From positions 1 through 33,098 of IMG/VR virus record IMGVR_UViG_3300027899_000041: a DNA stretch of 33,098 bases. One strand, 5' to 3'. A model generated the notes under the pieces. That model made no database searches, was not told the origin of the DNA, and saw only the letters and a program-made list of their open reading frames with translations. Positions 2,928 through 32,765 of the stretch are shown in pieces. The stretch comes from a virus. A program made the translations under genes and the position numbers. The stretch's first letter is position 1; each line of letters starts with the position of its first letter.

Positions 2928-5900
2928 TTATGGGCATGCGGCATTTCCAATTTTTATTTGCATGGTTCCAGTCCAATTAGGGTTGGCATTTGCTTTTAAT
3001 TGAAAATAAATGTAACTTGTAACTGAACCGCCCCAGGTGAATGGAATGGAACCGCTTGTTGCTCCAATTGGTATGAACCCATCCGCTGGGCGTGTTCCCG
3101 CAACAAAAAAACCGCCATCCTTTCCAGCCCAAAAATGAATTTCTTTTGTTGGCGGTGCACCGCTTATTAAATTGTATTCCAAAACATATTGGCCGCCCTG
3201 AACTGGTGTGCCCATTACGGGGTCGCTTATTGTTACATTTCGGTAACGGCCATTTGATGAATTGGTGCCAATAATGTTAAACAAACCCCCACCAACAACA
3301 CCGCATCCCAATGAACTACCGCCCTGGCAAACAATGTTTTGGAAATACTCACAAATGAAAACCGCGGGGGGAATTGAAATAAGGCCGCACAAATTGTAAA
3401 GGCCATTTGTCCAGGCGTTAATTGAAAACTCAACCGCCGCCTCATTTCCCGCTGAAAAATCCGCATCCATGTAACTCAATGCCGTTTGGCTTAATTGAGG
3501 CAATCCCAATGGGCCCGCAACTGGGTTGTTTTCAGCCAACCCCGCCATTGTTTCGGGGTTTTTGGTAACGTAAAATGAGAAATCCCCATTTTGGTTTGAA
3601 CTGTAAACAACACGCACCAATGTGTAATCCTGGGCGCATATTGCACGCCCCTCAATTTCCTCCCAAATCCCACTCAATGCATTTAATGCAAAAACACGGG
3701 CATTGTTTAACACACTGGAAAACCCTGAATTGTCGGGCTCATTTTCAATGGCCGCAACCATGAACCCCTTAACCTGGTTCAATTCAAATGGCACGCCGAA
3801 AACCGCGCCCAAATCAAATGTGTAAACATATTCAACCCATACATCCCCATCCCTCCAGTCCTTTGTAATTCCCAACGTGGAAACGTATGTTGAACCCAAA
3901 ACACCAACTGGTGTGCGCTGCATGAATGTTGCCGTGTTGGCAACTAAAACATTGGCTCCAGGAAATGGCGTTGTTTCAAAACCCACCCTGGTTGTAAAAT
4001 CCGTATCAATTAACGCGCTCCCGTTATCCGTAACGGTTAACGCTCCCAGGTTTTGCCAACCTCCAGGAAAACCAGCAACACGGTTTGAGGTGTGCGTTTC
4101 AAACATAAAAAATGTGCTTTGCCCTGGGTTTGGAAAATCGGCCTCAACACGGTAAACGTTCACGGTAATTGTTTTCAATAATTGCCTCCAGTCACTCATG
4201 TAACCCCACTCATCCAAACAATCCTTGAAATCCCCGTTTTCAATAACTGTTGTGTGCCTTATGCGTTCCTTTGCGGTTGGCTGCAAACATTCCGTTTCAT
4301 TGCTTTGAAAAAATTGCTCAAATTCACTTGAAACTGTAATTGGGCAATAATCACACCCAATTTCAGGTGTTTGCGTTACCGTTAACGGCTCACTCAAAAA
4401 CGTGTTTACGGTTTGCGTATCATCCGCGTATGCAACAACGGCCACGCGGTAAACATTACCAGGCACAACCGCCGTTGAAACGTATGCCGTAACCTCCCAA
4501 ACACCGCCACCCAATGGCACAATTGTGCTGGGGGTTTCCAAAAGGTTATCCAAAACGCTCACCCCTCCAATGTTGGTAATGGCCGCACGGCTGGAATTGT
4601 AGTTTGTAAGGAAATCCACACCCAAATTTTCAACCTGGCTTTCATCAAACACCTGGAAAATTGCACCCACCAAATTGCTGGAATATGCTGGGGGAACCTC
4701 AACCTGGAAAATAATTTTGGTTTTGAAAAGGGTTGAAAAATTGGAAACCATTGCGCCATTGCGCTCAAATTTTATGCTCCAATTTATCAATTCACTGGCC
4801 GCACCCAACAATCCCTTGTTGTAAAAACGGGCCTGGAAATTTATACAATTTTCCTCAAAACATTCAAATGGCTGGCCATCCACAATTGTATTGGGGTCAA
4901 CCAAATAAAACAATGAGGCCAATTTTTTGGTTGCGTTGTAAACGCTGGAACTGGCCATTGGGAAAGGTGCCGTTGTGCCAATGGCTGGGTTAATGTCATT
5001 AACTGAACCGCGCCGCCATTTTGGAATGTTGGCAATGTATGCGTTTTGCATCCAGTTTGCCAAATCTTCAATCATGAAAAACTGAAACAAAATTTGAAAC
5101 TCACCCGTTGCCGCATCAATTGGCTCAAAATAAACCTCCCAATTTTTGTTCACCAATTCATTGGAACCCATGCCAAACATTTGCATGGGGTATGTGCCGC
5201 CAACTGGTGTTGAAAATTCATTGAACTCAATGAAATAACCCGCTGGGGGTTGTGTTATTATTCCGTTGGGGTATTTGCTGGAAAAATTGCACTGGTTTGA
5301 AAATAACCATGGGTTAAAAAACAATTCAACCCCATCCGTTAACCCCGTGTTGTAAGTAAAATTGAATTTCACAAATTTTTTCTCAACAATGGCCGCGGCT
5401 TTGAACACCTTGGTGTTACCACAAAACCCGTTTTGGTCACGCAAATAACCGTTTTCATCCCCAATTGTTACATCATTGCAGCACAAACATGAGCAATCTT
5501 GTATTGCGGTTCCCAACAATTCATAACGTATATCGGGCTTACCGCTGCAAAAACCAGCATAAATGTAACATTGCAAAAATTCCCCAATGCTCATTGGTGT
5601 CCAGTTAACCGTAACCCCCGCGCTCATCAATGCGGGTATTGTTATGCCATTGGGTGAAAACGTAATATCATGGCCCTCACACAAACCAACATCCCCGTTA
5701 AATTCAATATCATGATAACAAACATTGTTTACCGTTGTGAGCACTGAACCCGTGCCTGGAAATGGAACCAAACCAAAATCAATTGGGCTGGGCGCAATCA
5801 ATGTAAATGGGTCAACAAATTCCAAAGGCAAATAATATCCTGGGTCCTGGCCATGCTCAATTGTGTAAAGGTACATTTTCCATTCCTCAACTGGTTGTGA

Positions 5901-6194
5901 GTTTACCATTGTGCAAATGCGCAATGTTATGGTTAATGATGCCCCAGGTGCTAACAAATAAGTAAACGAGGGCGGCGCGCCATTTACGGCAACCAACGTT
6001 ATTGTTGTTGTTGTTGCTGGCGGGCTAAATGTTACGTTGCTAAAACGCAAGTTTGAGTTATGTACGTTTTGCAGCGTAACAACCACATCATTGCAAAAGT
6101 TATCCCCGCATTGCATGTGGTAATTGTGCAACGTGCTGGGTGTATTATCATCCCAAACCAATGGGCCGCTGGTTATTGCTAAATGTCTTGGCAT
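2928..6194 (-). CDS. Large tail protein with tandem beta-sandwich domains, probable fibre or baseplate component
   Basis: At 1088 residues this is the second longest protein in the genome. The N-terminal ~240 residues read like two Ig-like or abnormal-spindle-type beta domains (LQNVHNSNLRFSNV, then PIDFGLVPFPGTGSV). A CSCLCC cysteine cluster follows near residue 235. The middle and C-terminal parts are rich in Gly, Asn, Thr and aromatics, as in carbohydrate-binding or fibre domains, and the last ~90 residues look like a separate jelly-roll or fibronectin-like unit. No enzyme motif is evident. It sits between the tail hub gene, which ends at 6211, and another cysteine-rich tail protein. It probably contributes to the tail tip that contacts the host surface. 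The exact role is an inference from position and composition. Confidence 0.7.
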   Translation of the reverse strand: MPRHLAITSGPLVWDDNTPSTLHNYHMQCGDNFCNDVVVTLQNVHNSNLRFSNVTFSPPATTTTITLVAVNGAPPSFTYLLAPGASLTITLRICTMVNSQPVEEWKMYLYTIEHGQDPGYYLPLEFVDPFTLIAPSPIDFGLVPFPGTGSVLTTVNNVCYHDIEFNGDVGLCEGHDITFSPNGITIPALMSAGVTVNWTPMSIGEFLQCYIYAGFCSGKPDIRYELLGTAIQDCSCLCCNDVTIGDENGYLRDQNGFCGNTKVFKAAAIVEKKFVKFNFTYNTGLTDGVELFFNPWLFSNQCNFSSKYPNGIITQPPAGYFIEFNEFSTPVGGTYPMQMFGMGSNELVNKNWEVYFEPIDAATGEFQILFQFFMIEDLANWMQNAYIANIPKWRRGSVNDINPAIGTTAPFPMASSSVYNATKKLASLFYLVDPNTIVDGQPFECFEENCINFQARFYNKGLLGAASELINWSIKFERNGAMVSNFSTLFKTKIIFQVEVPPAYSSNLVGAIFQVFDESQVENLGVDFLTNYNSSRAAITNIGGVSVLDNLLETPSTIVPLGGGVWEVTAYVSTAVVPGNVYRVAVVAYADDTQTVNTFLSEPLTVTQTPEIGCDYCPITVSSEFEQFFQSNETECLQPTAKERIRHTTVIENGDFKDCLDEWGYMSDWRQLLKTITVNVYRVEADFPNPGQSTFFMFETHTSNRVAGFPGGWQNLGALTVTDNGSALIDTDFTTRVGFETTPFPGANVLVANTATFMQRTPVGVLGSTYVSTLGITKDWRDGDVWVEYVYTFDLGAVFGVPFELNQVKGFMVAAIENEPDNSGFSSVLNNARVFALNALSGIWEEIEGRAICAQDYTLVRVVYSSNQNGDFSFYVTKNPETMAGLAENNPVAGPLGLPQLSQTALSYMDADFSAGNEAAVEFSINAWTNGLYNLCGLISIPPAVFICEYFQNIVCQGGSSLGCGVVGGGLFNIIGTNSSNGRYRNVTISDPVMGTPVQGGQYVLEYNLISGAPPTKEIHFWAGKDGGFFVAGTRPADGFIPIGATSGSIPFTWGGSVTSYIYFQLKANANPNWTGTMQIKIGNAACP

Positions 6195-6210: not shown

Positions 6211-7965
6211 TTAAACCACACCCTCAACGCTGGCGGTTCGGTTTGTAAAATTAAACTTTATTTCCTCAATTTGCCCAAATTTTTGAACTCCTCCCTTTAA
6301 CATTTCAACCGTTTTGCTCCAGTCAAAATTTTGGTAATCATCACATGTAAATTGAAACGTAAAACTGAAATCCCATTGGGTTGCGCTGGGCAACCTGGGG
6401 TTATCAATGTAATGAAACAATGAATAAAGGTTGTTATCAAACCCAGGCAAAAACCAAAATGGGTAATTTACGCGGTTTGTTGCTGAAATGTACCCACTCC
6501 CGTAACTCACATTTCCCCCCGTAAACGTGTCGGGGTAAAAACTTTGCACCGCCCCATCCGTTGTGCTTTGCCCATCCCAAATGAGCAATTTGTAGTTAAA
6601 CGCCGTATCATTGTTAATTAACATGGCTTTGCCGTAATTGGAAAACGCATTGAAAAACGCCATGTTAACCGCGCCGCCCAACCAGGTTTCAAAAAATTCA
6701 TAAACGTTTGTTCTTATGGCATCTTCACGGGTGCGCACTGGGGAAAGGGGCAATGAAAGGTTATATTGGCCGCTTTGGCTGGGGTTAAATGGGTTATTCC
6801 ATTCAACAATGCGGTTAAAACGGTTCCTGGCCTCATTTCCAATTGTATCCTGGGCATCCAACTGGTATTCAAAACGGGCAAACGCCCACCGTTCTTTGTC
6901 AATCCAGGAAAAACACACCTCATTGTTTTCAATGCGGTTTTGCTCCAGCAAATCCCCCGTGTTTACCCAAACGCTGGTTCCCTGGAAATAATCTTTGCGC
7001 TCAAAAACCAGGGTATTGCCAAAAATTCGCCATTGGGCGTTAAATGTTGGGTTCAAAATGTTATCCAATAACGTTTGCAATGTTTCCACTGGCAAATTTT
7101 CACTGGTTAACGTGTAATTCACATCATTTTTTTTGCGGCCATCCTTAACCTGGGCGGCCCACAACACCGTGTTCCAATAAGGTGAGGCGGGGTTGTTCAA
7201 AATGGAACTTTGAAAGGTTAACCCACATTTGCCGCAAACGTTTTTAATGTAATCCCTTACCAATGCGCTGGGGTGAAAATACCCGCATGGAATAACACGC
7301 TCGGCAATTTCACTGTTTATATCCTCCAGCAATTCAAATGCGTTTCCTGGGTCATAATCTGAATTGCAATCTTGTTGGGTGCAATCGGTTCCAGGAATGG
7401 CACACGCAATTGTACAAACCAACCATAAAATGGCCAAAATTGCGGCAAATGCAATGGCAAACGTAACCAAAAGGGGTGTTAAAACATTGATTAACATGTA
7501 GGCCAAAAACACAATAACATATTGAATAAACAACGGGCGGTGTTCAATACAGTAACGCATTGCAATGCGGTTTTGGTTCAAAAACCCGTTCCAATTATCC
7601 CAAATAACGGTGCTTTCAATACAGTTTATTTCAGGCGTTGTTTCAATGGCGTTTGCGCTTATCCAACAACCTGGCTCACACCAGTCAATGGCATCCCCCT
7701 GAATTACACCCTCAAACACTGGTGCCGCACAACATGCATCAAAAACTTTAATGGGCACCTCATTGGCAAACCCGTTTGGGTCATCAATTAACTGGGTTTT
7801 CAAAATTTGGTAACCATCATCATAAAACGTTAACTCACTGGAAAATGTTTTTGCCGTTTGCCCCGCATTTCCTGAACGGCGCATTGTAACCTCAAAATTT
7901 TGGGTTCCCTCAATGCGGCCCGTTACCAAAACCCCATTTAACTCAATCCTCATTGAACTGTCCAT
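6211..7965 (-). CDS. Tail hub/tip protein with a long hydrophobic insertion
   Basis: This 584-residue gene directly follows the tape measure gene (stop at 7970), where distal tail and tail-associated hub proteins usually lie. Residues 1-110 look like a distal-tail-type beta domain. Residues about 144-190 form an almost uninterrupted hydrophobic stretch (LFIQYVIVFLAYMLINV, then LLVTFAIAFAAILAIL), enough for two membrane spans. Cysteines flank it (residues 139, 184, 188, 195, 200). The remaining ~380 residues are polar and aromatic, resembling tail-associated hub domains. Hub proteins do not normally carry membrane segments, so this part may insert into the host membrane during ejection. A second in-frame ATG lies 12 bases downstream at 7953 and could be the real start. 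Confidence 0.7.
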   Translation of the reverse strand: MDSSMRIELNGVLVTGRIEGTQNFEVTMRRSGNAGQTAKTFSSELTFYDDGYQILKTQLIDDPNGFANEVPIKVFDACCAAPVFEGVIQGDAIDWCEPGCWISANAIETTPEINCIESTVIWDNWNGFLNQNRIAMRYCIEHRPLFIQYVIVFLAYMLINVLTPLLVTFAIAFAAILAILWLVCTIACAIPGTDCTQQDCNSDYDPGNAFELLEDINSEIAERVIPCGYFHPSALVRDYIKNVCGKCGLTFQSSILNNPASPYWNTVLWAAQVKDGRKKNDVNYTLTSENLPVETLQTLLDNILNPTFNAQWRIFGNTLVFERKDYFQGTSVWVNTGDLLEQNRIENNEVCFSWIDKERWAFARFEYQLDAQDTIGNEARNRFNRIVEWNNPFNPSQSGQYNLSLPLSPVRTREDAIRTNVYEFFETWLGGAVNMAFFNAFSNYGKAMLINNDTAFNYKLLIWDGQSTTDGAVQSFYPDTFTGGNVSYGSGYISATNRVNYPFWFLPGFDNNLYSLFHYIDNPRLPSATQWDFSFTFQFTCDDYQNFDWSKTVEMLKGGVQKFGQIEEIKFNFTNRTASVEGVV

Positions 7966-12446: not shown

Positions 12447-13730
12447 TTAACGTTGGTATTTTATGAAATCATGGTGAAACGTAAAAAGGTAATAACGGAA
12501 ACAATCCAAAAGGTGTGTTGCCTGGGCGTTCTTTGTTTTCTCAATATCCCCCGTGGCGGTTGTTTCAACCGTTTGCAAATCATGAATTAAAAACTGGCAA
12601 CTGGCATCAATGAACAACCCAGGGTGTTTTTCCAGCATGGAATTGCACAACACCCGTGAATTTTTAATTGAGGGGTTAACGCTGGGAACCTTAAATGCGC
12701 TTTTCGGCAAACCCAACTCCTCCTTTATTATTTGGTAAAAATTCAACGCGCCCTTTGTCATGGCTGAACGGTTGCCCCCGCTGGCATCCCCCGTTACAAT
12801 AAAAAACCGTTCCCCAAATGCAACTTTAATGGCCTCACAAAGGTTGTAAATGTCCGAATTGCGCAACCTGAACTCACGCAAAATGTGTATTGTATTCCCC
12901 CAACTTTGGCCCGCCACACATGTAATGGGGTCAACGTTAAAATCAAAACTCAACAAAATGGGCTCATTGGGGTTTTCCTTTAATCCAGCCCTCACCGTTT
13001 TCATTTTATTGAACGCATAAGCAAACGGGCGTTCCACGGCCATAACATCCCAGTCACCGTTTACAAACACGGCTTTGGTTAACTCATCCAGGTTTTCCAT
13101 TGCGGCCATGTACTCGGGCGGCAAATTGGGGTTATCTTGCATGAGCGCGCGCATGTAAAAATAATCTTTGCGCAATGTGCCGTTCAATGCTGGTTCATGG
13201 AACTTTGTTTTGGTGAAATTTTGGCTGGGGTTGCAAGTCAACAAAATAATCCTGGGCGGTTGTTTGCTGGCATCCTTAAACACATGGCGGCCAACCCTCA
13301 ATTTGCACTTTTCAAATGTTTTTTCCTGGCATTCCTGGGCCTCCTCAATGAGGAAAAAATTGGTTTCCAGTCCATCAAACCGTGTGAGGTTTTTGTCTTG
13401 CACGTAATTTTCAGCGAAAAAATGCAATTCACTCCCGTTGGTAAACGTAACCACGCGGTCAGTATGGTTAAAACTTTTAATGAAACTTTTGGGGCACAAC
13501 TTGAAAAACGTGGGCATGGTTGTGCGCTTTAATGTTGGCACGCTTTCCCTCACAACATGGCTTTTGCTCCCTGGGTAAACCCTGGCCAACAAAATAAGGG
13601 TTGCCAATGCAACATAACTTTTGCCCCCGCCCGCGGCTCCTCCAAATAAAAGGCATTCATATTTTCCCGAAAAAACGGCCTCAATGAACTCCTTTTGTTT
13701 GGCGTGCGGTTCAAACGCCACAATGCTCAT
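12447..13730 (-). CDS. terL: Terminase large subunit
   Basis: The 427-residue packaging motor has an N-terminal ATPase and a C-terminal RNase H-like nuclease. Walker A is GGAAGGGKS (residues 30-38, Lys37). Walker B is FFLIEE (125-130) with catalytic glutamate. A coupling motif LLTCNPS follows at about 163-169. The nuclease acidic residues are likely Asp263 (SFDFNVDP), Asp315 (VTGDASG) and Asp409 (THLLDCFRYY). The length is typical of the family. Its start overlaps the upstream small gene as ATGA, and the small subunit lies two genes upstream, so the packaging genes form one translational unit. It hydrolyses ATP to pump DNA through the portal and cuts concatemers. Confidence 0.95.
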   Translation of the reverse strand: MSIVAFEPHAKQKEFIEAVFSGKYECLLFGGAAGGGKSYVALATLILLARVYPGSKSHVVRESVPTLKRTTMPTFFKLCPKSFIKSFNHTDRVVTFTNGSELHFFAENYVQDKNLTRFDGLETNFFLIEEAQECQEKTFEKCKLRVGRHVFKDASKQPPRIILLTCNPSQNFTKTKFHEPALNGTLRKDYFYMRALMQDNPNLPPEYMAAMENLDELTKAVFVNGDWDVMAVERPFAYAFNKMKTVRAGLKENPNEPILLSFDFNVDPITCVAGQSWGNTIHILREFRLRNSDIYNLCEAIKVAFGERFFIVTGDASGGNRSAMTKGALNFYQIIKEELGLPKSAFKVPSVNPSIKNSRVLCNSMLEKHPGLFIDASCQFLIHDLQTVETTATGDIEKTKNAQATHLLDCFRYYLFTFHHDFIKYQR

Positions 13731-14004: not shown

Positions 14005-14232
14005 TTAATTCATTGAAATACGGTAATACAACTCATCCAGCACCTCAACCCAAAATTGAGGTTGTGCCAAATAACCCTCCAGGGTGTTGCCGTTTTTGAA
14101 CTGAATGCCTGAACTTGTTTTTTCAATGTTTTGAACGGCAATTTTAATGGCATTTTCAACACCGCCATGTTGTTCCAAAAACTCATTTACAAACTCATCA
14201 AACTCCTCCTGGGGCATGTTTATTGTATTCAT
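14005..14232 (-). CDS. Small acidic hypothetical protein
   Basis: The 75-residue, acidic, helix-rich protein (EEFDEFVNEFLEQHGG) starts in an ATGA overlap with the terminase small subunit stop. There is no membrane segment or known motif. The tight coupling on both sides places it in the packaging operon. Function unknown. Confidence 0.65.
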   Translation of the reverse strand: MNTINMPQEEFDEFVNEFLEQHGGVENAIKIAVQNIEKTSSGIQFKNGNTLEGYLAQPQFWVEVLDELYYRISMN

Positions 14233-14783
14233 GTGAATGTAATTATTTGTTCCCCAATTTTGAAAACCTGGGTTTCACCGCTTGTTTCAAATTGGTTTGT
14301 TTCCCCCCAGTTTGCTGGGTCAATTGTTTTTAATGCGAAAATAACCGCGGTTGCATTTGGCCCAATAAACCGTTTTTTGGTTTTGGTTTCAGTGCACGCC
14401 ATGGCTCCCTTTCGCACCATTGTTTCAGTTTCCTCAACCCAGTAACCCATGAGCAAACGCCCCAGGCCATCCAACGCCTTTTCTCTCAACCCCTCCTTTC
14501 CAACTTTGCCGTGTTGTTCCTTTGCTTTTTTATATCGCGCGGAAATTTCGGCATTTTCATTGGCCCAATTCCAAAATGTACGCACGGCAATGCCATGTTC
14601 CTTACAACAACTTTCAATGGTCACGTTGCCGCTTTCGTACAATTCGCAAATGGCGTTGGCCTTTGCAATTCGCTCCTCAACCTTATCCTTTTTTGGAACG
14701 GTTTTTTTTGCTGGTTGCTTTGCTGGTTTCTTTGCCGTTTTCGGCCTGGCCTGGCCCGTTTGGTTCGTTTTCATTTTGCGCAT
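14229..14783 (-). CDS. terS: Terminase small subunit-like DNA-binding protein
   Basis: The 184-residue protein has a lysine-rich disordered head (residues 1-35). A helix-turn-helix follows at about 40-85 (ESCCKEHGIAVRTFWNWAN), then a conserved small-terminase C-terminal part (PNATAVIFALKTIDPANWGE). Small subunits bind the packaging site and regulate the large subunit, which lies two genes downstream. The first 101 bases overlap the upstream gene in another frame. There is no later in-frame ATG before the DNA-binding domain, so the overlap is probably real. Starts at 14783 and 14774 are both possible. A transposase-like HTH was considered, but the C-terminal motif and neighbours favour terminase. 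Confidence 0.8.
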   Translation of the reverse strand: MRKMKTNQTGQARPKTAKKPAKQPAKKTVPKKDKVEERIAKANAICELYESGNVTIESCCKEHGIAVRTFWNWANENAEISARYKKAKEQHGKVGKEGLREKALDGLGRLLMGYWVEETETMVRKGAMACTETKTKKRFIGPNATAVIFALKTIDPANWGETNQFETSGETQVFKIGEQIITFT

Positions 14784-16745: not shown

Positions 16746-17639
16746 TTATTCATATTGGTTTTGCATTATTGCCTCAACTTGCGCCCTGAAATTGAATTGC
16801 TCATTTTTCATGCGTTCAAAAAACTCATTTATTGCCAACTTTTTGGCGTTGCGTTTTGCGCGTTCCTCAAATTCAGGGTTTGGGGTTTCGCTTTGTTCCA
16901 ATAATTGGCGCATGCTTTTCAATTTTTTGTAACGCTCCAAACTGGTTTGGCTTTCGCTTTTTATTTCCTCCCTGGTGTAATTCCTGGCACGCTCCAAAAT
17001 TTTCAATTTTTCCTCATTTGGAATGCTTAAAACGCCCAATTGTTTTTCCAGCACATCAAACATGTGCTCAACAAACAAAATTTGAACCTGGGGGCCTCCC
17101 TGGGCGTATTTTTCAAACGGTTCAACAATACAGTCAAACACGTAATCCCAAAACGCTTGTTTCAATTCCGCGGCGGTTTTTTCCTTTGGCGGCTCCAGGG
17201 CCTTTTGGTTGCGCTGGAACTCCAGCAATGCAAACCCGCGTTTTTCATTGTATGCTTTCATCACCGCGCTCAAATACAACGCATTGAAATTTTGGTAATG
17301 GGTCACATCAATGCTCAACTCACCAGCAATGGCCATGCGGAATGCCAATTTTAACTCCTCGGGGGTGTATTGTTTTAAGTCCGTTTGTATGAACTCCAGC
17401 AAAACCGCCTTTTGCAATTCGCTGGGTAAATTTTCGGCCTTTAATCCAATGAGGGCAAAAATATAACGCAAACTTTGTTTAATGGGTTCCATTTCGCCAT
17501 TCAGGTTGCCAATTGAGGTATCACACAATGCGGCCTCCGCAATTTCGCGGCCCTTAAAACTTTGAAATTTCATTATCCCAATTTGGTTTGGCACCCTTTC
17601 CCTGGTTGCCAATTCCGTTTTGTTGTTGTTGTTTTCCAT
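16746..17639 (-). CDS. Replication-module protein, unknown function
   Basis: The 297-residue, mainly helical protein lies directly after the replisome-organiser-like gene, where phages often encode a helicase loader. I see no Walker A motif, so it is not a DnaC-type ATPase. A central stretch (FNALYLSAVMKAYNEKRGFAL) and a charged coiled-coil C-terminus (SLERYKKLKSMRQLLEQ) are visible. The first 86 bases overlap the previous gene in another frame. The ATG at 17573 (MKFQSFKGRE) would cut the overlap to 20 bases and is a serious alternative. A role in helicase or primase recruitment is an inference from position only. Confidence 0.65.
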   Translation of the reverse strand: MENNNNKTELATRERVPNQIGIMKFQSFKGREIAEAALCDTSIGNLNGEMEPIKQSLRYIFALIGLKAENLPSELQKAVLLEFIQTDLKQYTPEELKLAFRMAIAGELSIDVTHYQNFNALYLSAVMKAYNEKRGFALLEFQRNQKALEPPKEKTAAELKQAFWDYVFDCIVEPFEKYAQGGPQVQILFVEHMFDVLEKQLGVLSIPNEEKLKILERARNYTREEIKSESQTSLERYKKLKSMRQLLEQSETPNPEFEERAKRNAKKLAINEFFERMKNEQFNFRAQVEAIMQNQYE

Positions 17640-18381
17640 GTCTTAAATTTAACCAATTTTTTGTTGTTTGATACACTGAAACGTATTTTTTTAATAAGGG
17701 TTTGAAATTATCCATTGCCTCCAAAACCTCCAAAACCTGGGCCTGGCCAAATTCCTCAACCAGTTTTTGCGCCTCCTCATTTGTGAGCGGTTTTGTTAAC
17801 TTTGAAACCTGAACCAAATTTTTTTGAATATGAACCAACACGGGGTGCAATACGGTAACACCAACACATTTTTCCTCAACCTCACCAATGGGCAAAATAA
17901 CACTGTTATTTTCTTTATTTGAATGTGAAAATGAATGTGAATGTGAAAGGGTTGGGTTTTGGTTCCCGCTTTGGTTGGTGTTTTGGTTAACCAAATTGGC
18001 ATGGGCTTTTTTCAGGTTTGGGTTGCCTCCCAACCTCCCAACCTCCCGCCGCACTTGGCGCAACGCCTCCTCATTAACCATGCGTTTGGAATAAAAACGC
18101 CCGTTTTCATCGCATTTTAACACTCCAAATTTTTGCAATTCATCCCAAACTTTTTTGAACTTTTTGGGCGCAATTTTAGCCAACTTTTGAACTCCTTTTG
18201 CATCCAAAACCTCATCCCCAATTTTCAAAACACCTGGTTCATTACTCATGAACATGATACACAACAAATCAATCCAAACGCCTTTTGTTTCGTATGAACA
18301 CATCCGCAAACCTGGGTCATTTAACCAGTCACCTGGAAAAAATAAAAATGCGGGTGCCCGCTCACTGGCGTTTTTTTTCAT
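17554..18381 (-). CDS. Replisome organiser / DnaD-like replication initiation protein
   Basis: The 275-residue protein begins with PAFLFFPGDWLNDPGLRMC and continues YETKGVWIDLLCIMF. This is the N-terminal winged-helix pattern of phage replication initiators related to DnaD and replisome organisers. A Ser/His/Asn-rich linker (about residues 140-165) separates it from a helical C-terminal domain (LTNEEAQKLVEEFGQAQV). It probably binds the origin and recruits the host helicase, because the phage has no polymerase or helicase gene of its own. I chose the ATG at 18381 because it overlaps the upstream stop as ATGA and directly follows a CAACAACAACAA tract. A longer start at 18414 is less likely. 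Confidence 0.75.
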   Translation of the reverse strand: MKKNASERAPAFLFFPGDWLNDPGLRMCSYETKGVWIDLLCIMFMSNEPGVLKIGDEVLDAKGVQKLAKIAPKKFKKVWDELQKFGVLKCDENGRFYSKRMVNEEALRQVRREVGRLGGNPNLKKAHANLVNQNTNQSGNQNPTLSHSHSFSHSNKENNSVILPIGEVEEKCVGVTVLHPVLVHIQKNLVQVSKLTKPLTNEEAQKLVEEFGQAQVLEVLEAMDNFKPLLKKYVSVYQTTKNWLNLRHGKQQQQNGIGNQGKGAKPNWDNEISKF

Positions 18382-18776
18382 TGTTGTTGTTGTTTCAGGT
18401 TTAACGCTTTGCACAAATTTAGGTAACGCCCATCCTTTTCTTTGCGTTTCCCAGCAATAACGTTGTGCACAAATGTTTGTGAAAACCCTGGGTGCGCCTC
18501 ACAAAAACTTTTCATGGTTTTCCAACGCGTTACCAACGCAATGCGCACCTTTTCACGCTCCTTTGTGTTAATACATTCCAGGCATTGCACGGGCTGCAAT
18601 TTGCCCAACTCCAATTCAATTTGCTCCAAAATCCAACTGGTTTTGGTTTCACACAAACGGTTGTTCAATGCATTGGTCACGGTGTAATAATTCAACCCGC
18701 TCAATGTGCAAAAACGTTTCACCGTTCCGCATTTGGTTTTCACCTTTTCAAAAATACTTTTTACACTTTTTGCCAT
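18378..18776 (-). CDS. Tandem helix-turn-helix DNA-binding protein
   Basis: The 132-residue protein looks like two copies of one ~50-residue unit: residues about 9-58 and 78-128. Matching positions include CGTVKRFC against WKTMKSFC, VTNALNNRL against VHNVIAGKR, and LEQIELELGKL against LNLCKALNLKQ. Each unit resembles a small Cro/C1-type helix-turn-helix. Two fused HTH units could bind a direct-repeat operator as a monomer. The gene lies between RecT and the replication initiator and is coupled to the latter by ATGA. It may regulate the early operon or bind the origin; which one cannot be told from sequence. It ends in four glutamines encoded by CAA repeats. Confidence 0.65.
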   Translation of the reverse strand: MAKSVKSIFEKVKTKCGTVKRFCTLSGLNYYTVTNALNNRLCETKTSWILEQIELELGKLQPVQCLECINTKEREKVRIALVTRWKTMKSFCEAHPGFSQTFVHNVIAGKRKEKDGRYLNLCKALNLKQQQQ

Positions 18777-18834: not shown

Positions 18835-19833
18835 TTATTCCACATCATCAAATTTGCCCAACGCCTGGCATTTGTTCATCCCAGCATCCAAAACCTCGGG
18901 GCGGGTTTCATTTGCCAATAATTCAACAACGCACTCCGCGGTTTCACATGCCTCAATTTTGGCCAACATTTCCTCCAAACTCATTTCCTCATTTGGGTCA
19001 CGTTCAGGGGTTAAAATAATTGGCTTTGGCGTTTCGCTCAATTCCGCTTTGCGTTTGTTTACCAACTTTTTGAAATCGGGGTTGCCGTGCAAATACTCGA
19101 ATTTTGTCCAAACCGCTTTCAACTCATCAATTGTTTGAACCGCTTTAACCTCATCCAGGGCCTCAACAACATTTGTTATTTCCTCCTTTAATGTTGTTGG
19201 CTGGGGTTTAACCTCAATAATGGTTTCCGCTTTTGGTTTGGCTGCACGCTTTACTGTTTTTGGTTCCTCAACAATAACCGCCGCCTCCGCTGGTTGCTCC
19301 ATTGCATTCAACTCCTCCGCGGTGTATGGCATGCCTCCCAACTCATCACTGAAACACAACCTGAACCCCTGGGCCATTGCAACCTTTTTAATCATTGTAA
19401 CGGGTTTTTCCCTCCAAAATTTATTCAATTGCCCATCCCTGGTTGTTCCAAAATACTCCGCAAATAAAACCTCATGAATAAATGGGTGTTGAAAATCGCG
19501 GCGGTGAATTGTTATTTGTGCACGCAATGTTGAATTGCCTGGTTGTTGTTTGTCAACCGTGCCATCCGTGGTAACATGCCAACCGCTCAATTTTCCAGTG
19601 CGCTCCGCACGCTTAATGTAGGTTTCATAACCCACAATTACACTGAACTGGTTGCCGTACTTATTCGCGTAAATTTCACGCTTAAACGGGTTCAACCCAA
19701 AACCCTGGGCAATTTCAACAAATTGCTGAAATTCCCCATTGGAAAGGTTGTTTGCCATACCCATTGCATTAAGGTAGGTTTTTAATTTTTCCACATCAAT
19801 TGTGTGAACCTGGTTTTTTTGTATTTCGTTCAT
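18835..19833 (-). CDS. recT: RecT/Bet-family single-strand annealing recombinase
   Basis: The 332-residue protein carries the signature of phage Bet/RecT annealases: FGLNPFKREIYANKYGN, VIVGYETYIKRAERTG, FWREKPVTMIKKVAMAQGF and LCFSDELGGMPYTAEE, all within residues 45-175. The C-terminal half is a low-complexity, charged linker and small domain rich in Glu, Lys and Pro. It anneals complementary single strands for recombination-dependent replication or repair, alongside SSB. No partner exonuclease was recognised. I chose the ATG at 19833 because it follows a TATATTTG box and an AAAAACC leader; the longer frame to 19875 would contain the promoter box. Confidence 0.92.
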   Translation of the reverse strand: MNEIQKNQVHTIDVEKLKTYLNAMGMANNLSNGEFQQFVEIAQGFGLNPFKREIYANKYGNQFSVIVGYETYIKRAERTGKLSGWHVTTDGTVDKQQPGNSTLRAQITIHRRDFQHPFIHEVLFAEYFGTTRDGQLNKFWREKPVTMIKKVAMAQGFRLCFSDELGGMPYTAEELNAMEQPAEAAVIVEEPKTVKRAAKPKAETIIEVKPQPTTLKEEITNVVEALDEVKAVQTIDELKAVWTKFEYLHGNPDFKKLVNKRKAELSETPKPIILTPERDPNEEMSLEEMLAKIEACETAECVVELLANETRPEVLDAGMNKCQALGKFDDVE

Positions 19834-19850
19834 AACATTAAAGGTTTTTG

Positions 19851-19879
19851 CAAATATAGGTTGTTTTTCTTTCAAACAA
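19851..19879 (-). promoter_or_regulatory. Candidate Bacteroidota promoter upstream of recT
   Basis: TATATTTG at 19858-19851 matches the TAnnTTTG -7 consensus. A TTG at 19879-19877 lies 18 bases upstream of it, within the usual spacing for the -33 element. The recT ATG follows 17 bases later behind an AAAAACC leader. The box overlaps the end of the intergenic space after the upstream gene, so it may be an internal promoter of the early operon. Confidence 0.5.
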
Positions 19880-22477: not shown

Positions 22478-22508
22478 CAAAGGTACAAAAACACCTTTAA
22501 CCGTTCAA
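22478..22508 (-). promoter_or_regulatory. Candidate promoter TTG-N20-TACCTTTG upstream of the terminator
   Basis: TACCTTTG at 22485-22478 is an exact TAnnTTTG match, and TTG at 22508-22506 lies 20 bases upstream. The element overlaps the end of the membrane protein gene. A transcript would reach the terminator at 22411-22437 within about 40 bases, suggesting attenuation. TTAAAGGT occurs twice here (22500-22493 and 22463-22456). Confidence 0.45.
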
Positions 22509-22910
22509 ATGTTTATCCGTTAAATTGAGCACCGTGTGTGCAATGGCTCCAATGGGGAACATATACCACAACGCCAAATTGTGTGTGCTCCAGGTCATTA
22601 AAAACAACGCAAACACAACCCAAACATTCATGCAATAAAGGCAACCGCCCAGGGGTTTGTATAAAAGGCGCAACGGGTTTTTTGGTTTATTGAACCAGGC
22701 CAAAACCCTGGTATCCCACCAGCCAAAAATGTTGCCTGGTGAAATGAGAAAATCCAAAAAAAATGTGCAAAGGCCTCCAATGAACCCCAGGCCTCCCAGC
22801 CAAAACACGGGCCCCAATTCATTTGCCGCGTTCAAAAATTGCATAAATGCCGCACCTAAAATGCAGCCAATGAAAACAAAAAAAATGTTATCAATTGTTG
22901 TTTTTTTCAT
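22497..22910 (-). CDS. Integral membrane protein with four predicted spans
   Basis: The 137-residue protein has hydrophobic segments at about 8-26, 32-52, 85-104 and 108-128. A glycine-rich loop and a cysteine pair in LGGCLYCMNVW suggest similarity to small bacterial membrane proteins with a C-x-C/W signature, but I cannot name a family. It is the last gene before the terminator. Possible roles are superinfection exclusion or lysis support. I chose the ATG at 22910 (MKKTTIDN) because the longer frame overlaps the previous gene. Confidence 0.65.
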   Translation of the reverse strand: MKKTTIDNIFFVFIGCILGAAFMQFLNAANELGPVFWLGGLGFIGGLCTFFLDFLISPGNIFGWWDTRVLAWFNKPKNPLRLLYKPLGGCLYCMNVWVVFALFLMTWSTHNLALWYMFPIGAIAHTVLNLTDKHLNG

Positions 22911-22929
22911 GGTATGTTGTTTTTTATGG

Positions 22930-23241
22930 TTATGAACAAACTGGCAAAACTCCATTCACGGCCCATGTACATGCGCCATCCTGGGTTGTGAAATAATGCC
23001 ATCCAGGAACCGCCGCACATTCAGGCACCTGAATTTTAATAAGGGTTTCCCCCGTTTCGCTAAATGTAAACGGCAACACCAATGGCGCGCCCTCCTCAAA
23101 TGGCAAAACAACCGTTGTGAATGCTCCCGTGTTGGTGAACACCTCAAATGTGTAATCCCCAGCGCATGGGGCGTTTATTCCAAACTCAATTGGCATGTTA
23201 GGTGCGTAACACCCCAAATTTTTTATGCAACCGCAATTCAT
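22930..23241 (-). CDS. Small cysteine-containing virion-like protein
   Basis: The 103-residue, beta-rich protein starts MNCGCIKNLGCYAPNMPIEF, with four further cysteines later (residues 26, 74, 89 and 102). The pattern (FTFSETGETLIKIQV) resembles an Ig-like or jelly-roll domain. Several structural genes of this phage share the cysteine-rich, beta-rich character, so a capsid decoration or tail accessory role is plausible. Its leader contains TAAATTTG, which may be a promoter box or just an A/T leader. Confidence 0.6.
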   Translation of the reverse strand: MNCGCIKNLGCYAPNMPIEFGINAPCAGDYTFEVFTNTGAFTTVVLPFEEGAPLVLPFTFSETGETLIKIQVPECAAVPGWHYFTTQDGACTWAVNGVLPVCS

Positions 23242-24365: not shown

Positions 24366-24814
24366 TACTTTTTGGCCTTTATTGAATTGAACAAATAACC
24401 CAAACCAAACAAGGCCACAACGGCCAAAACTCCCCACAATAACGCTTGCCAATTGGCTTTTTTTTCAATTTCCTGGGTGTTGGCGGTTGTGGTTTGTATT
24501 ATTTTTTCAACCCTTACCGTATCAGGCGGGCATTTTGTTTGCACAAAAAATGTGTCCCCAGGCATGCGCACAATTTTTGTTTCAATGCGGGTTTTCAAAT
24601 CCCTCAAAAAAATTGTATCCCTGGAACTCACACGCACCAGGGTATCAAATGAAAGGGTTTTGGTAACAATTACCGTGTCCTTTATGCGCGTTATGGTTTC
24701 CCTGGCCACCAATTCGGGGCATGGGTAACGTGCAGCGCATTTTTCACTGGTAATGCAACCCTCACTCAACACCATGGCCACCAGGCCCAGCATTATCATT
24801 GTTTTTAATTTCAT
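24365..24814 (-). CDS. Candidate unimolecular spanin (lipoprotein with C-terminal membrane anchor)
   Basis: The 149-residue protein starts with a lipoprotein-type signal, MKLKTMIMLGLVAMVLSEGC (Cys20). It continues as a periplasmic, beta-strand-rich region of alternating charged and hydrophobic residues (residues about 35-105). It ends with one transmembrane helix (about 120-142, LLWGVLAVVALFGLGYLF) and a short basic tail. An outer-membrane lipid anchor plus an inner-membrane C-terminal helix is the u-spanin plan known from phage T1. It lies after the holin (53-base overlap) and two genes after the amidase, completing a lysis cassette for a Gram-negative host. The lipobox (L-S-E-G-C) is imperfect, as in many Bacteroidota. 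Confidence 0.75.
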   Translation of the reverse strand: MKLKTMIMLGLVAMVLSEGCITSEKCAARYPCPELVARETITRIKDTVIVTKTLSFDTLVRVSSRDTIFLRDLKTRIETKIVRMPGDTFFVQTKCPPDTVRVEKIIQTTTANTQEIEKKANWQALLWGVLAVVALFGLGYLFNSIKAKK

Positions 24815-25313
24815 CCTTTTCAATGAATTGGTTTTTGTATGCATCAATTTTTTTGTAAAAAAACCGTGCAAAATCGTTTTTAATGAAACCCAACAATGCC
24901 AAATTTTTAACCAGTGAAATGAGGTTTACCAAAACCAGGGGAACAAACACCCCCTCATTTAACCAAAACAATGCGCTGGAACCTTTGGAAAGGTTGGTTG
25001 CAAATAACAACAAACCCGTGTGGCTTAACAATGTCCAAAAAATGCGCAATGCTTTCCTGGTTTCAAATCGGTTGTGTTTTAATGCCAACCAAACACCCGT
25101 TGCATGGTCACACGCAATAAGGCCAATGAGGGCAAAAAAACTTTCCGCGGGTTCAAAAATCCAGTCACCCACCAAACCAGTGAATGCCCCCATGCTGAAA
25201 CCACCCATGAGGGTAACAAATAAAATTTGTGCTTTCAATTTCAATGAACAAATTGAGGTTATTATTTCCATCATTTCATTGCTGGCATGGGTATGGCTCC
25301 AAACATTTTTCAT
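24762..25313 (-). CDS. Phage holin, holin-4 / toxin-secretion type
   Basis: The 183-residue membrane protein has hydrophobic spans at about 28-48, 57-77, 90-106 and 118-142. The signature CDHATGVWLALKHNRF after the second span matches the D-x-x-TG motif of the holin-4 family. A polar, charged tail follows. Holins open the inner membrane at a set time, freeing the endolysin or triggering lysis. It sits between the amidase region and the spanin candidate. It overlaps the spanin by 53 bases. Confidence 0.85.
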   Translation of the reverse strand: MKNVWSHTHASNEMMEIITSICSLKLKAQILFVTLMGGFSMGAFTGLVGDWIFEPAESFFALIGLIACDHATGVWLALKHNRFETRKALRIFWTLLSHTGLLLFATNLSKGSSALFWLNEGVFVPLVLVNLISLVKNLALLGFIKNDFARFFYKKIDAYKNQFIEKDEIKNNDNAGPGGHGVE

Positions 25314-30873: not shown

Positions 30874-31107
30874 TCAATCAATTTCACGGTCACCAATAAA
30901 AACGCGGTATCCATCCAAAACAATGGTTTGTTCACTGGGTTCAATTTGTTCAAACCTTAATGGCTCACCCTCCTCCAATGCCTGGTTCATGTAATCCAAC
31001 AACGGTTCCATGCCAACAACCTCAAACCACATTACTGGGTTTTGCCCCATTGGAAATTTCAACATGTACTCATTGTAAACCTTTTCAAATGTTTTTGCCG
31101 TTGCCAT
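30874..31107 (-). CDS. Small hypothetical head-module protein
   Basis: The 77-residue acidic protein (MWFEVVGMEPLLDYMNQALE) starts in a TAATG overlap with the upstream head protein gene, so it is translationally coupled to it. If that protein carries a peptidase or toxin domain, a small coupled partner could be its regulator, but that is speculation. No motif recognised. Confidence 0.6.
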   Translation of the reverse strand: MATAKTFEKVYNEYMLKFPMGQNPVMWFEVVGMEPLLDYMNQALEEGEPLRFEQIEPSEQTIVLDGYRVFIGDREID

Positions 31108-32765
31108 TATTTCAATAAATTTTTTGGTGTGTTGGGTTTAATAATATCCTCAAAAACATATTCATTCATTAACTCGTATAACTCGGGAAACTCCAATTGA
31201 AAAATGGGGTTTCCAGTAAAGTAGTTTTCAAAGGCATGCGCAAACCATTCACATTTGGCCAACCCCTGGTTGTAATCCAGCATATATTTCACATCATGCC
31301 CCGAACCAAAACGGCATTTGCTAACCGCTTGTATTGTGTCCGAATACGCCCCCGCAAATTCGCCCAACTCCTTTTGGGTAAACTGGGGGAATTTATCTTT
31401 GTAATCAAACACCAATGAGGAGGGCATTGTTTTCCTTTTGCCCGCCTTAAAATCATCCAATTTATCCTCAAACAATTTAACGCTTTTTTCCCAGTAATCA
31501 TTTGTTTTTGCATCCACATCAAAAACCCAGGTTCCATTTGCACGGCGTTCAACAATTTTGTTAAGGGTGTAATGTGTACGGTGCGCATATTCATGAACGG
31601 CAACCTTTAATTTGCCCGCCTCATTGCCCATTGCGTAACGTGTACCCTTGTAACCCAGGCGCACAATTCCATCACTTTCTTTGTAATAACTTTGGGTTAT
31701 TTCTTTCATTTTGCCGTTATCGGAATACTCAAACAAAATTTCGGGCAATCCTGGCATGCCTTTCAATTGCCTTGGTGTTTTTGAACTTTGAAACCCAAAC
31801 AAGTTATTGAAATCCTGAACCGCCCGCGGCGTTCCAATTTCCGCGCTCCCCTTTTCGGCCTTTGCCTCAATTTTTTGTTGTTCCTCGGGCATGTTTAATT
31901 TTTCCCGCTGGCTTTTGGTTAACTTGAACGGAATGGCTGCATGGCGGCAATTGTAACCCCCACGGTAAACGGCAAAATTTTCCGCATTGGTTCCTGGTAT
32001 CATCCCCGTGCCATTGTTTTGGGCCCATGCAATTTGCGCGGGCAAATCATCCTTTTGCAAAACGCCCATGCTCACCCAACGGCGGCATTGTGGCCTGGAA
32101 TCATCAATTAAGGAACCAACATAACGGAACGCATCCAAACCGTTTTCCTCCGCAATGCGGGCATTCACCTGGCCATCAAATTGGTTTAACGCATCGCGGC
32201 TCACTTGTTTCACATAACGGGAAAACAACCCATTAACATTTGGGTTTCCTAAAATGTAGGTTTGCAATGCGTTTTCCAAATCCGCAATTGTGGCCCCCGC
32301 AACAATGTTTTTGTAAATTCCCTCCCGTACTGGTTCAATAAAATTGGTGCTCACACCCGTGCCCGTTAAACCTTGCAATGTTTGTTCAACAATGGCCTTT
32401 TGAATGGGGTTAACCAGTTTATCCAATTCCTTTGCATCCAGGCCGTTTAATTCAGTGTGCAATTTCACGTTGTTTTCCTTTAACGTTTCAAAATTGCGCA
32501 AATAACCCGCCGCCGCTTTACTGTATTGGGTTGCCTTTATGGCTTTTTTAATGCGTTCATCCACCTGGTTAACAATGTCCACATTGGTTGCATCAAACTC
32601 AATTTTGCCATCCTTTGTGTTGAAATCCTTAAACAGTTTTTTCAACTCATCATAAACCATTTTTTCAACCGCTGGCAACTCATTGTAAAACGCATTTTCC
32701 GCACTTATTGCCGTGCGTTCATTGCGTTCAATTATTTTCAAAATTTCGGGCGTAAATTCAGCCAT
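31107..32765 (-). CDS. MuF-like minor head protein fused to an HEXXH metallopeptidase-like domain
   Basis: The 552-residue protein follows the portal gene. Residues about 150-285 carry the minor head (SPP1 gp7 / Mu F) signature: VSRDALNQFDGQVN, SRPQCRRWVSMG (Cys227) and GGYNCRHAAIPF (Cys273, His275). These proteins line the portal vertex and may enter the host. After a charged linker, residues about 380-540 contain VAVHEYAHRTHY (His391, Glu392, His395), an HEXXH zinc site. Glu506 in KCEWFAHAFENYF is a candidate third ligand. The domain resembles effector or toxin-type metallopeptidases appended to MuF proteins. Activity and the third ligand are inferred. Confidence 0.75.
   Translation of the reverse strand: MAEFTPEILKIIERNERTAISAENAFYNELPAVEKMVYDELKKLFKDFNTKDGKIEFDATNVDIVNQVDERIKKAIKATQYSKAAAGYLRNFETLKENNVKLHTELNGLDAKELDKLVNPIQKAIVEQTLQGLTGTGVSTNFIEPVREGIYKNIVAGATIADLENALQTYILGNPNVNGLFSRYVKQVSRDALNQFDGQVNARIAEENGLDAFRYVGSLIDDSRPQCRRWVSMGVLQKDDLPAQIAWAQNNGTGMIPGTNAENFAVYRGGYNCRHAAIPFKLTKSQREKLNMPEEQQKIEAKAEKGSAEIGTPRAVQDFNNLFGFQSSKTPRQLKGMPGLPEILFEYSDNGKMKEITQSYYKESDGIVRLGYKGTRYAMGNEAGKLKVAVHEYAHRTHYTLNKIVERRANGTWVFDVDAKTNDYWEKSVKLFEDKLDDFKAGKRKTMPSSLVFDYKDKFPQFTQKELGEFAGAYSDTIQAVSKCRFGSGHDVKYMLDYNQGLAKCEWFAHAFENYFTGNPIFQLEFPELYELMNEYVFEDIIKPNTPKNLLK

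Follow-up and report, generated by a model that had tools for sequence, protein, structure and literature searches.

It is not yet settled how tailed phages that lack a contractile sheath get across the bacterial outer membrane. In phage lambda, the tail-tip protein gpI carries hydrophobic helices, with Kyte-Doolittle means over 19 residues (KD19) at or above a threshold of 1.6 at residues 101 to 124 and 130 to 156 and a 45-residue mean (KD45) of 1.55. Its helices H1 and H2 were proposed, in extracts of PMC11101478, to enter the outer membrane upon receptor binding. Extracts of two GTA studies describe residues 1 to 46 of the RcGTA megatron (PMC7296036) and residues 1 to 45 of the R4C megatron (PMC10276861) as an iris that closes the tail tube and as a proposed pore. 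In these extracts, the outer membrane helices of lambda, RcGTA, and R4C have the status of proposals only (PMC11101478, PMC7296036, PMC10276861).

Phage T5 offers a different arrangement. According to extracts of PMC10038345, a plug domain belonging to the hub closes the T5 tube, and next to it, in the hub cup, 35 residues from the C terminus of the tape measure are resolved. The plug of the hub protein pb3 refolds into hairpin legs, which are stated to enter the outer membrane, and 46 hydrophobic residues of pb2 were read as two membrane helices (PMC10038345, extracts). In phi29, the L-loop of gp9 exits the lumen and becomes a barrel of helices whose outer surface is hydrophobic (PMC6542822, extract).

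Here, we describe a strongly hydrophobic segment inside the chain of a predicted tail hub protein, which may help a phage breach the bacterial envelope. The protein is encoded in a 33-kb viral sequence, referred to below as the window (positions 1 to 33,098 of IMG/VR record IMGVR_UViG_3300027899_000041).

Tail gene cluster and hub identity

The genes of the tail region are arranged as follows.

2928 to 6194, minus strand: open reading frame (ORF) of a 1088-aa protein without a PHROG match
6211 to 7965, minus strand: hub ORF, 584 aa
7970 to 11521, minus strand: tape measure ORF, 1183 aa (TMP_3, PF20155, E value of 9.8e-26; phrog_9959, E value of 7.7e-61)
12447 to 13730 and 14229 to 14783, minus strand: terminase genes, adjoining the tail genes

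The preliminary description of this DNA placed a tail hub protein directly after the tape measure gene. The gene order bears this out, as only 4 bases separate the tape measure ORF from the hub ORF, and both lie on the minus strand. Such a gene, next to the tape measure and on the same strand, has the position of one encoding a gp27-like baseplate hub (BHP). The 1088-aa ORF and then a 364-aa ORF follow downstream. The only Pfam signal of the 1088-aa protein was a subthreshold ASH (Ig-like) domain (E value of 0.088); from its gene place alone, a role in the tail tip or a fiber may be suggested. Among the 70 related loci examined, 55 encoded a relative of the 1088-aa protein and 69 had a tape measure match.

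Elsewhere in the window, an ORF similar to head proteins is found away from the terminase genes, at the far end (31107 to 32765; phrog_595, weak Phage_min_cap2). RecT-like (18835 to 19875) and replisome organizer-like (17554 to 18414) genes stand between the two. Two small ORFs (22497 to 22955, 152 aa; 24762 to 25313, 183 aa) each encode several hydrophobic stretches; no PHROG match was found for either at an E value of ≤0.01, and they are possibly membrane proteins such as holins.

The nearest phages to the hub in the phage records were Flavobacterium phages, and the host probably belongs to the Bacteroidota, judging from these nearest relatives. For the N-terminal part of the tape measure, the first match was Cellulophaga phage phi39:1, and many phages of Actinobacteria were matched as well.

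Sequence comparison gave few clues to the identity of the 584-aa protein. No Pfam match was obtained at an E value of ≤0.1, and the single PHROG match within the same limit was phrog_12387 (E value of 9.9e-11), a group of unknown function. Likewise, a comparison of its sequence profile with solved structures yielded no relative and only one unrelated match (E value of 2.1). Structure was more informative. An AlphaFold2 model was built from an alignment of 60 sequences (A2; the window protein plus 59 from viral contigs) and reached a mean pLDDT of 86.6 and a pTM of 0.80; it superseded an earlier model from 15 sequences (pLDDT of 69.3).

Compared with the PDB, the model matched best to diffocin (Z of 10.9; 282 aligned residues, root mean square deviation [rmsd] of 4.4), followed by cyanophage A-1(L) (Z of 10.1), phiCD508 (Z of 10.1), the T5 tip chain 7zhj_b (Z of 9.9; 268 aligned, rmsd of 5.0), and Milano (Z of 9.6). 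Mu gp44 (1wru; Z of 8.1) and the T4 cell-puncturing device (1k28_D; Z of 7.0) were also recovered. By title, all 50 PDB entries listed were phage tail, baseplate, injection system, VgrG, or GTA structures; the same classes made up the 25 matches that Foldseek gave at E values of ≤0.001. The Foldseek TM-scores normalized by query length were low (0.26 to 0.35), because most matched chains are shorter than the hub model. Matches to the earlier, poorer model were also led by hub and baseplate proteins. The structure comparison thus recovered a hub fold with two tail-tube domains, and the label of the preliminary description is supported by both models: by its predicted fold, the 584-aa protein is a tail hub (baseplate hub). 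By analogy with this fold family, the hub would be a trimer.

The hydrophobic segment and its conservation

Three features of the hub, the last two predicted by AlphaFold2, define the region of interest.

7381 to 7539, minus strand: hydrophobic segment, hub residues 143 to 195, KD19 of ≥1.6 throughout
7399 to 7533, minus strand: predicted single helix of 45 residues, hub residues 145 to 189 (pLDDT of 81 to 88 in 10-residue blocks)
7294 to 7377, minus strand: predicted return arm with helices at hub residues 197 to 204 and 207 to 224

About 45 hydrophobic residues had originally been noted at positions 144 to 190, bracketed by cysteines and with two possible membrane spans. KD19 values were at or above the threshold without a break over 53 residues (143 to 195), an extent that none of 10,000 shuffles of the hub sequence matched. 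The best KD45 was 2.35, starting at residue 146, and was likewise matched by 0 of 10,000 shuffles of the protein. The KD19 peak of 2.84, taken by itself, was matched in 9 of 10,000 shuffles, so it is the length of the segment rather than its peak that is unusual. Residues 144 to 193 contain no Asp, Glu, Lys, Arg, or His, which gives an uncharged run of 50 residues, versus 41 for the longest such run in the 23 other window ORFs measured. Among these 23, KD19 rose above 1.6 only in the tape measure (three stretches, peak of 2.02) and in the two small ORFs (peaks of 2.08 and 2.14). The hub thus carries what would be sought in a penetration helix, namely a hydrophobic helical stretch of about 45 residues in a tail-tip protein.

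An alignment of related hubs, which the preliminary description had proposed as a check, showed that the segment is kept. Related proteins were found at 70 viral loci, of which two (L020 and L070) end before the segment. A stretch with KD19 of ≥1.6 was present at the same place in 67 of the remaining 68 loci. Over the window and these 68 loci, KD45 had a median of 2.41 and a maximum of 3.22, and the lowest values were those of L059 (0.93), L056 (1.36), and L071 (1.51). The exception, L059 (L059:5001-6359), has a shorter, more amphipathic stretch with a KD19 maximum of 1.15, below the threshold. As some of the 70 loci are nearly identical, locus counts overstate independence, and distinct variants are given for that reason.

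In 59 distinct variants, residues 146 to 189 contained 1.1% Asp, Glu, Lys, or Arg, while their mean pairwise identity was 32%, versus 48 to 61% in five other parts of the hub. Across 13 consecutive blocks of 44 residues in 61 long sequences, the proportion of charged residues ranged from 9.4 to 28.5%, and the two least charged blocks were those overlapping the segment. Hydrophobicity is therefore retained while the sequence drifts; it is conserved as a property and not as a sequence. Chance or a translation artifact as the origin of the segment was ruled out by its length relative to the shuffles and by its conservation across relatives.

More distant hubs carry a comparable region. A search of the phage records with the window hub returned Flavobacterium phages only (29 records at E values of ≤1). 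The cultured Flavobacterium phages FpV9, tant8-1, and 1/32 encode a related hypothetical protein (phrog_12387) after the tape measure, in the same gene order and with a hydrophobic region at the same place as in the window hub. Profile comparison of the window and FpV9-type families gave a probability of 98.6% (E value of 8.1e-16 for the pair), and the hydrophobic regions were aligned with gaps. A stretch with KD19 of ≥1.6 occurred in all three cultured phages and in 11 of 11 FpV9-type contigs, two of which are near-copies (L086, 99% identical to FpV9, and L089, of the same length as tant8-1). The FpV9-type segment is longer and broken: five of the 11 contigs have two separate stretches, and the three cultured phages share an invariant Gly-rich turn. 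A third family, found via L071 (25% identity to the window protein), has one stretch of 32 to 34 residues in 7 of 7 loci, one of which is on L071's own contig and three of which have the same segment. No match to the L071 protein was found in the phage records. Among the open-license PMC papers listed in literature searches, no title or abstract opening described a segment of this kind in the hubs of Flavobacterium-type phages.

Not all hubs share this feature. The presumed hub of Polaribacter phage P12002L (P12002L_0027, 742 aa, equated with a BFVD match by equal length and by its place after the tape measure) has no such stretch (KD45 maximum of 0.37), and this one case ruled out a feature of all Bacteroidota hubs. 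In six other phages, which were 6 of 60 matches listed, of 869 records, no KD45 value above 1.04 was found in 12 proteins encoded after the tape measure; these proteins were chosen by gene position alone, and two of them are incomplete at the edge of the sequence examined. A short peak (KD19 of 2.17) was observed in gp22 of phi39:1. A pattern scan of bacterial genomes for prophages gave seven pattern matches and no relatives.

Both AlphaFold2 models contain one 45-residue helix. In the model from 60 sequences, a strand (residues 134 to 140) precedes it, and a second strand (residues 227 to 235) follows the return arm. The refuting outcome named in the preliminary description, a confident model that buries this stretch in the core of a soluble domain, did not emerge; the model from 60 sequences shows one long helix within an insertion. 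Column polarity followed an alpha-helical period of 100 degrees, matched by 15 of 10,000 permutations for residues 146 to 164 and by none of 10,000 for residues 169 to 190 (the moment at 100 degrees in two other frames tried was matched by 48 and 127 of 10,000), which implies a narrow polar stripe along an otherwise greasy helix. One position in the middle of the helix stands out.

7462 to 7464, minus strand: hub residue 168, Thr in the window and Pro in 43 of the 60 distinct rows with a residue there

Within residues 163 to 171, 52 of 61 distinct rows have a Pro, the window's own being at 164, and the region around residue 168 is possibly a kink or turn. The two spans envisaged earlier are not retained as a firm feature, given one helix in both models and one shorter stretch in the L071 family.

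The bracketing cysteines held up in the alignment. Cys was found at C139 in 69 of 69 aligned rows, at C184 in 62 of 64, at C200 in 62 of 62, and at C227 in 68 of 68, and Cys residues 78, 79, 96, 100, 115, 139, 200, 227, and 247 were invariant where aligned. Most of these cysteines are missing from the FpV9 family, so they are not essential to the segment. After the arm, a C227-x3-H231 motif is followed by C244-x2-C247, with C244 present in 66 of 67 rows. The cysteine cluster is a candidate metal or iron-sulfur site; its residues could form disulfides or bind zinc or an iron-sulfur cluster. Iron-sulfur clusters are described, in extracts, for the lambda gpL C domain (PMC13243795) and for the hubs of R4C (PMC10276861) and RcGTA (PMC7296036).

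Placement of the arm and comparison with known tail tips

The predicted arm seems to lie between two parts of the hub that can be read as counterparts of separate lambda proteins.

7642 to 7965, minus strand: first tail-tube domain, hub residues 1 to 108, read as lambda gpL-like
6214 to 7272, minus strand: second half, hub residues 232 to 584, read as lambda gpJ-like

Residues 1 to 108 or 109 matched the Chi tail-tip chain 8vjh_D (Z of 6.6; 93 aligned, rmsd of 3.6) and the JBD30 baseplate chain 8rk3_O (Z of 6.4; 93 aligned, rmsd of 3.3; model residues 1 to 109), chains of 271 to 272 residues that we read as gpL-like. The second half matched residues 241 to 590 of lambda chain 8iyk_F (Z of 6.2; 213 aligned, rmsd of 4.3), and the Ur-lambda chain 9e7m_Ja and the T1 chain 9l9p_S align from hub residue 233. 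The border between these two parts is blurred by lambda chain 8k35_A (Z of 6.8), whose alignment begins at residue 135, and the matches to T5 and to the megatron chains span the joint. With Z scores of 6.2 to 6.8 (9.9 for T5), the comparison of the model suggests, but does not firmly establish, that the segment lies between a gpL-like and a gpJ-like part. In lambda, gene L is separated from gene J by genes K and I.

Lambda gpI is a separate protein, whereas the window segment is part of the hub chain and is more hydrophobic; no homology to gpI is claimed. Lambda gpJ lacks such a segment. The megatrons of RcGTA and R4C are a parallel in that helices within a stretch of about 45 residues of a hub complex protein narrow the tail channel and were proposed, in extracts, to form an outer membrane pore (PMC7296036, PMC10276861). 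The presumed megatron chains matched the hub model (8gtc_M, Z of 6.9; 6tba_8A, Z of 6.4, rmsd of 9.2). However, in these GTAs two proteins make up the hub and the helices stand at an N terminus, while in the window hub and arm form one chain and the segment is internal.

T5 pb3 shares the hub fold with the window hub, but the hydrophobic stretch of T5 belongs to the tape measure pb2 (KD45 of 1.32), and pb3 has none (KD45 maximum of 0.72). phi29 gp9 resembles the window hub as a tail-end protein with an internal hydrophobic segment. It differs in coming from a short-tailed Bacillus phage, in being a hexamer, and in having a KD45 of only 0.97 (residues 430 to 474), never exceeding the KD19 threshold. 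The phages in which a single chain combines hub and arm are apparently phages of the Bacteroidota.

Possible functions of the segment

In the preliminary description, opening a channel in the envelope was seen as normally the task of the tape measure, with the hub as a possible alternative. This view needs to be amended, as the tape measures of the window and its relatives have hydrophobic stretches too, and as extracts of the literature already propose membrane entry for proteins other than the tape measure, namely lambda gpI (PMC11101478), the RcGTA and R4C megatrons (PMC7296036, PMC10276861), and phi29 gp9 (PMC6542822). In the window's tape measure, KD19 was ≥1.6 at residues 262 to 280, 383 to 404, and 1043 to 1068, and stretches near residues 380 to 410 and about 115 to 140 residues before the C terminus recur in most relatives. 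Sharing of the task between hub and tape measure is likelier than replacement, because the tape measure has hydrophobic stretches of its own; a hub that replaces the tape measure as the membrane protein was unsupported for the same reason. The tape measure of Cellulophaga phage phi39:1 (L080:7848-10028) had a KD45 of 2.01 from residue 279, near that of the hub segment.

On balance, and with modest confidence, we lean towards a reading in which the arm of the hub is a part of the closed tail tip that becomes an anchor and first breach in the outer membrane. The tail is probably non-contractile (siphovirus-type), and the hub would close its end as a trimer. Inserted between the first tail-tube domain and the second half, its arm would comprise the helix of about 45 residues and the two-helix return arm, with the conserved cysteines at its foot and, in relatives, often a Pro in the middle of the helix. 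In the free virion, the arms of the three subunits would be kept together within the tail lumen or close to it and would help to close the tube there. Binding of the receptor by the tail tip would open the hub and let the arms swing out; their hydrophobic helices would then enter the outer membrane, anchor the tube, and start a hole, and the tape measure, which also contains hydrophobic stretches, would complete the conduit. A barrel of three or six helices is too narrow for duplex DNA, so the segment would not be the whole conduit, and sharing with the tape measure is to be expected. Entry into lipid is favored because the sequence drifts with almost no charge. The hydrophobic stretches of the tape measure count against this reading, since the hub segment then need not be the membrane part. 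L059 has no stretch at the threshold, L056 and L071 are well below the median, and T5 pb3 and lambda gpJ lack the segment; the presumed hub of P12002L, which has none, indicates that not every such hub needs one. The blurred border of the gpL-like part and the caution of the T5 authors given below likewise count against it.

Hydrophobic helices packed on each other or on the tape measure would be indistinguishable here. In the main alternative, which we consider less likely, three helices would close the tube as a lumen plug, form a socket that grips the C terminus of the tape measure, and part but stay in the hub when it opens. A single predicted 45-residue helix would suit a three-helix bundle, the weak polar stripe could face any partner, and extracts of PMC10038345 provide a precedent in T5, with a tube-closing hub plug and the tape measure C terminus beside it. 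The single helix keeps this alternative alive, as membrane entry is itself something we infer. However, T5 pb3 plugs its tube without such hydrophobicity. A sequence that drifts while staying almost free of charge is more in keeping with lipid than with a single specific interface between proteins, in which contact residues are usually kept. The same drift weighs against an assembly core buried inside the hub trimer or in contact with the 1088-aa protein and serving folding rather than entry: the segment was the least conserved of the six hub parts measured, which is unusual for a buried core. Only helices of 8 and 18 residues stand beside the 45-residue helix, so that most of its faces are unlikely to be covered within the chain. 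The trimer expected from the fold family and the conserved cysteines at the foot of the arm, which suggest a rigid stem, speak for such a core, which we nevertheless consider improbable.

An arm that reaches the cytoplasmic membrane and forms a channel there with the tape measure is the least probable of these alternatives and would surprise us. At 1.5 Å per residue, the helix would measure about 67 Å, longer than one bilayer needs, and the mid-segment Pro of many relatives might give two spans. However, the tape measure is the usual inner membrane candidate, and the hub acts at the outer membrane in the T5, lambda, and RcGTA models (PMC10038345, PMC11101478, PMC7296036, extracts).

Within the favored reading of an arm that enters the outer membrane, a broader proposal can be made only tentatively. 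One chain would combine the hub and an outer membrane penetration helix, opening of the trimer would drive three arms into the membrane, and the junction of the gpL-like with the gpJ-like part would be a general slot for membrane-entry helices in siphovirus-type tails. If the joint were such a common slot, lambda gpI, the GTA megatron, and the hubs described here would fall into one scheme. A general slot is made less likely by the alignment of 8k35_A and by the caution of the T5 authors, who state in extracts of PMC10038345 that the helix proposed to form an outer membrane pore in the GTA megatron cannot be general in Siphoviridae.

We put forward one strongly hydrophobic segment as the candidate; it occupies a fixed place within a single protein and is present in three distant hub families. 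As it also occurs in cultured Flavobacterium phages, it could be removed or replaced and the effect on DNA entry measured. L059, with its shorter and more amphipathic stretch, is a natural variant that bears on what the segment does. In another relative, contig IMGVR_UViG_3300020017_000024, the tape measure-hub region is present twice at 98% identity (L030 and L068), which is either a real duplication or an assembly error; the L068 hub ORF diverges from that of L030 after about residue 536 and continues into repeats that look fiber-like by eye.
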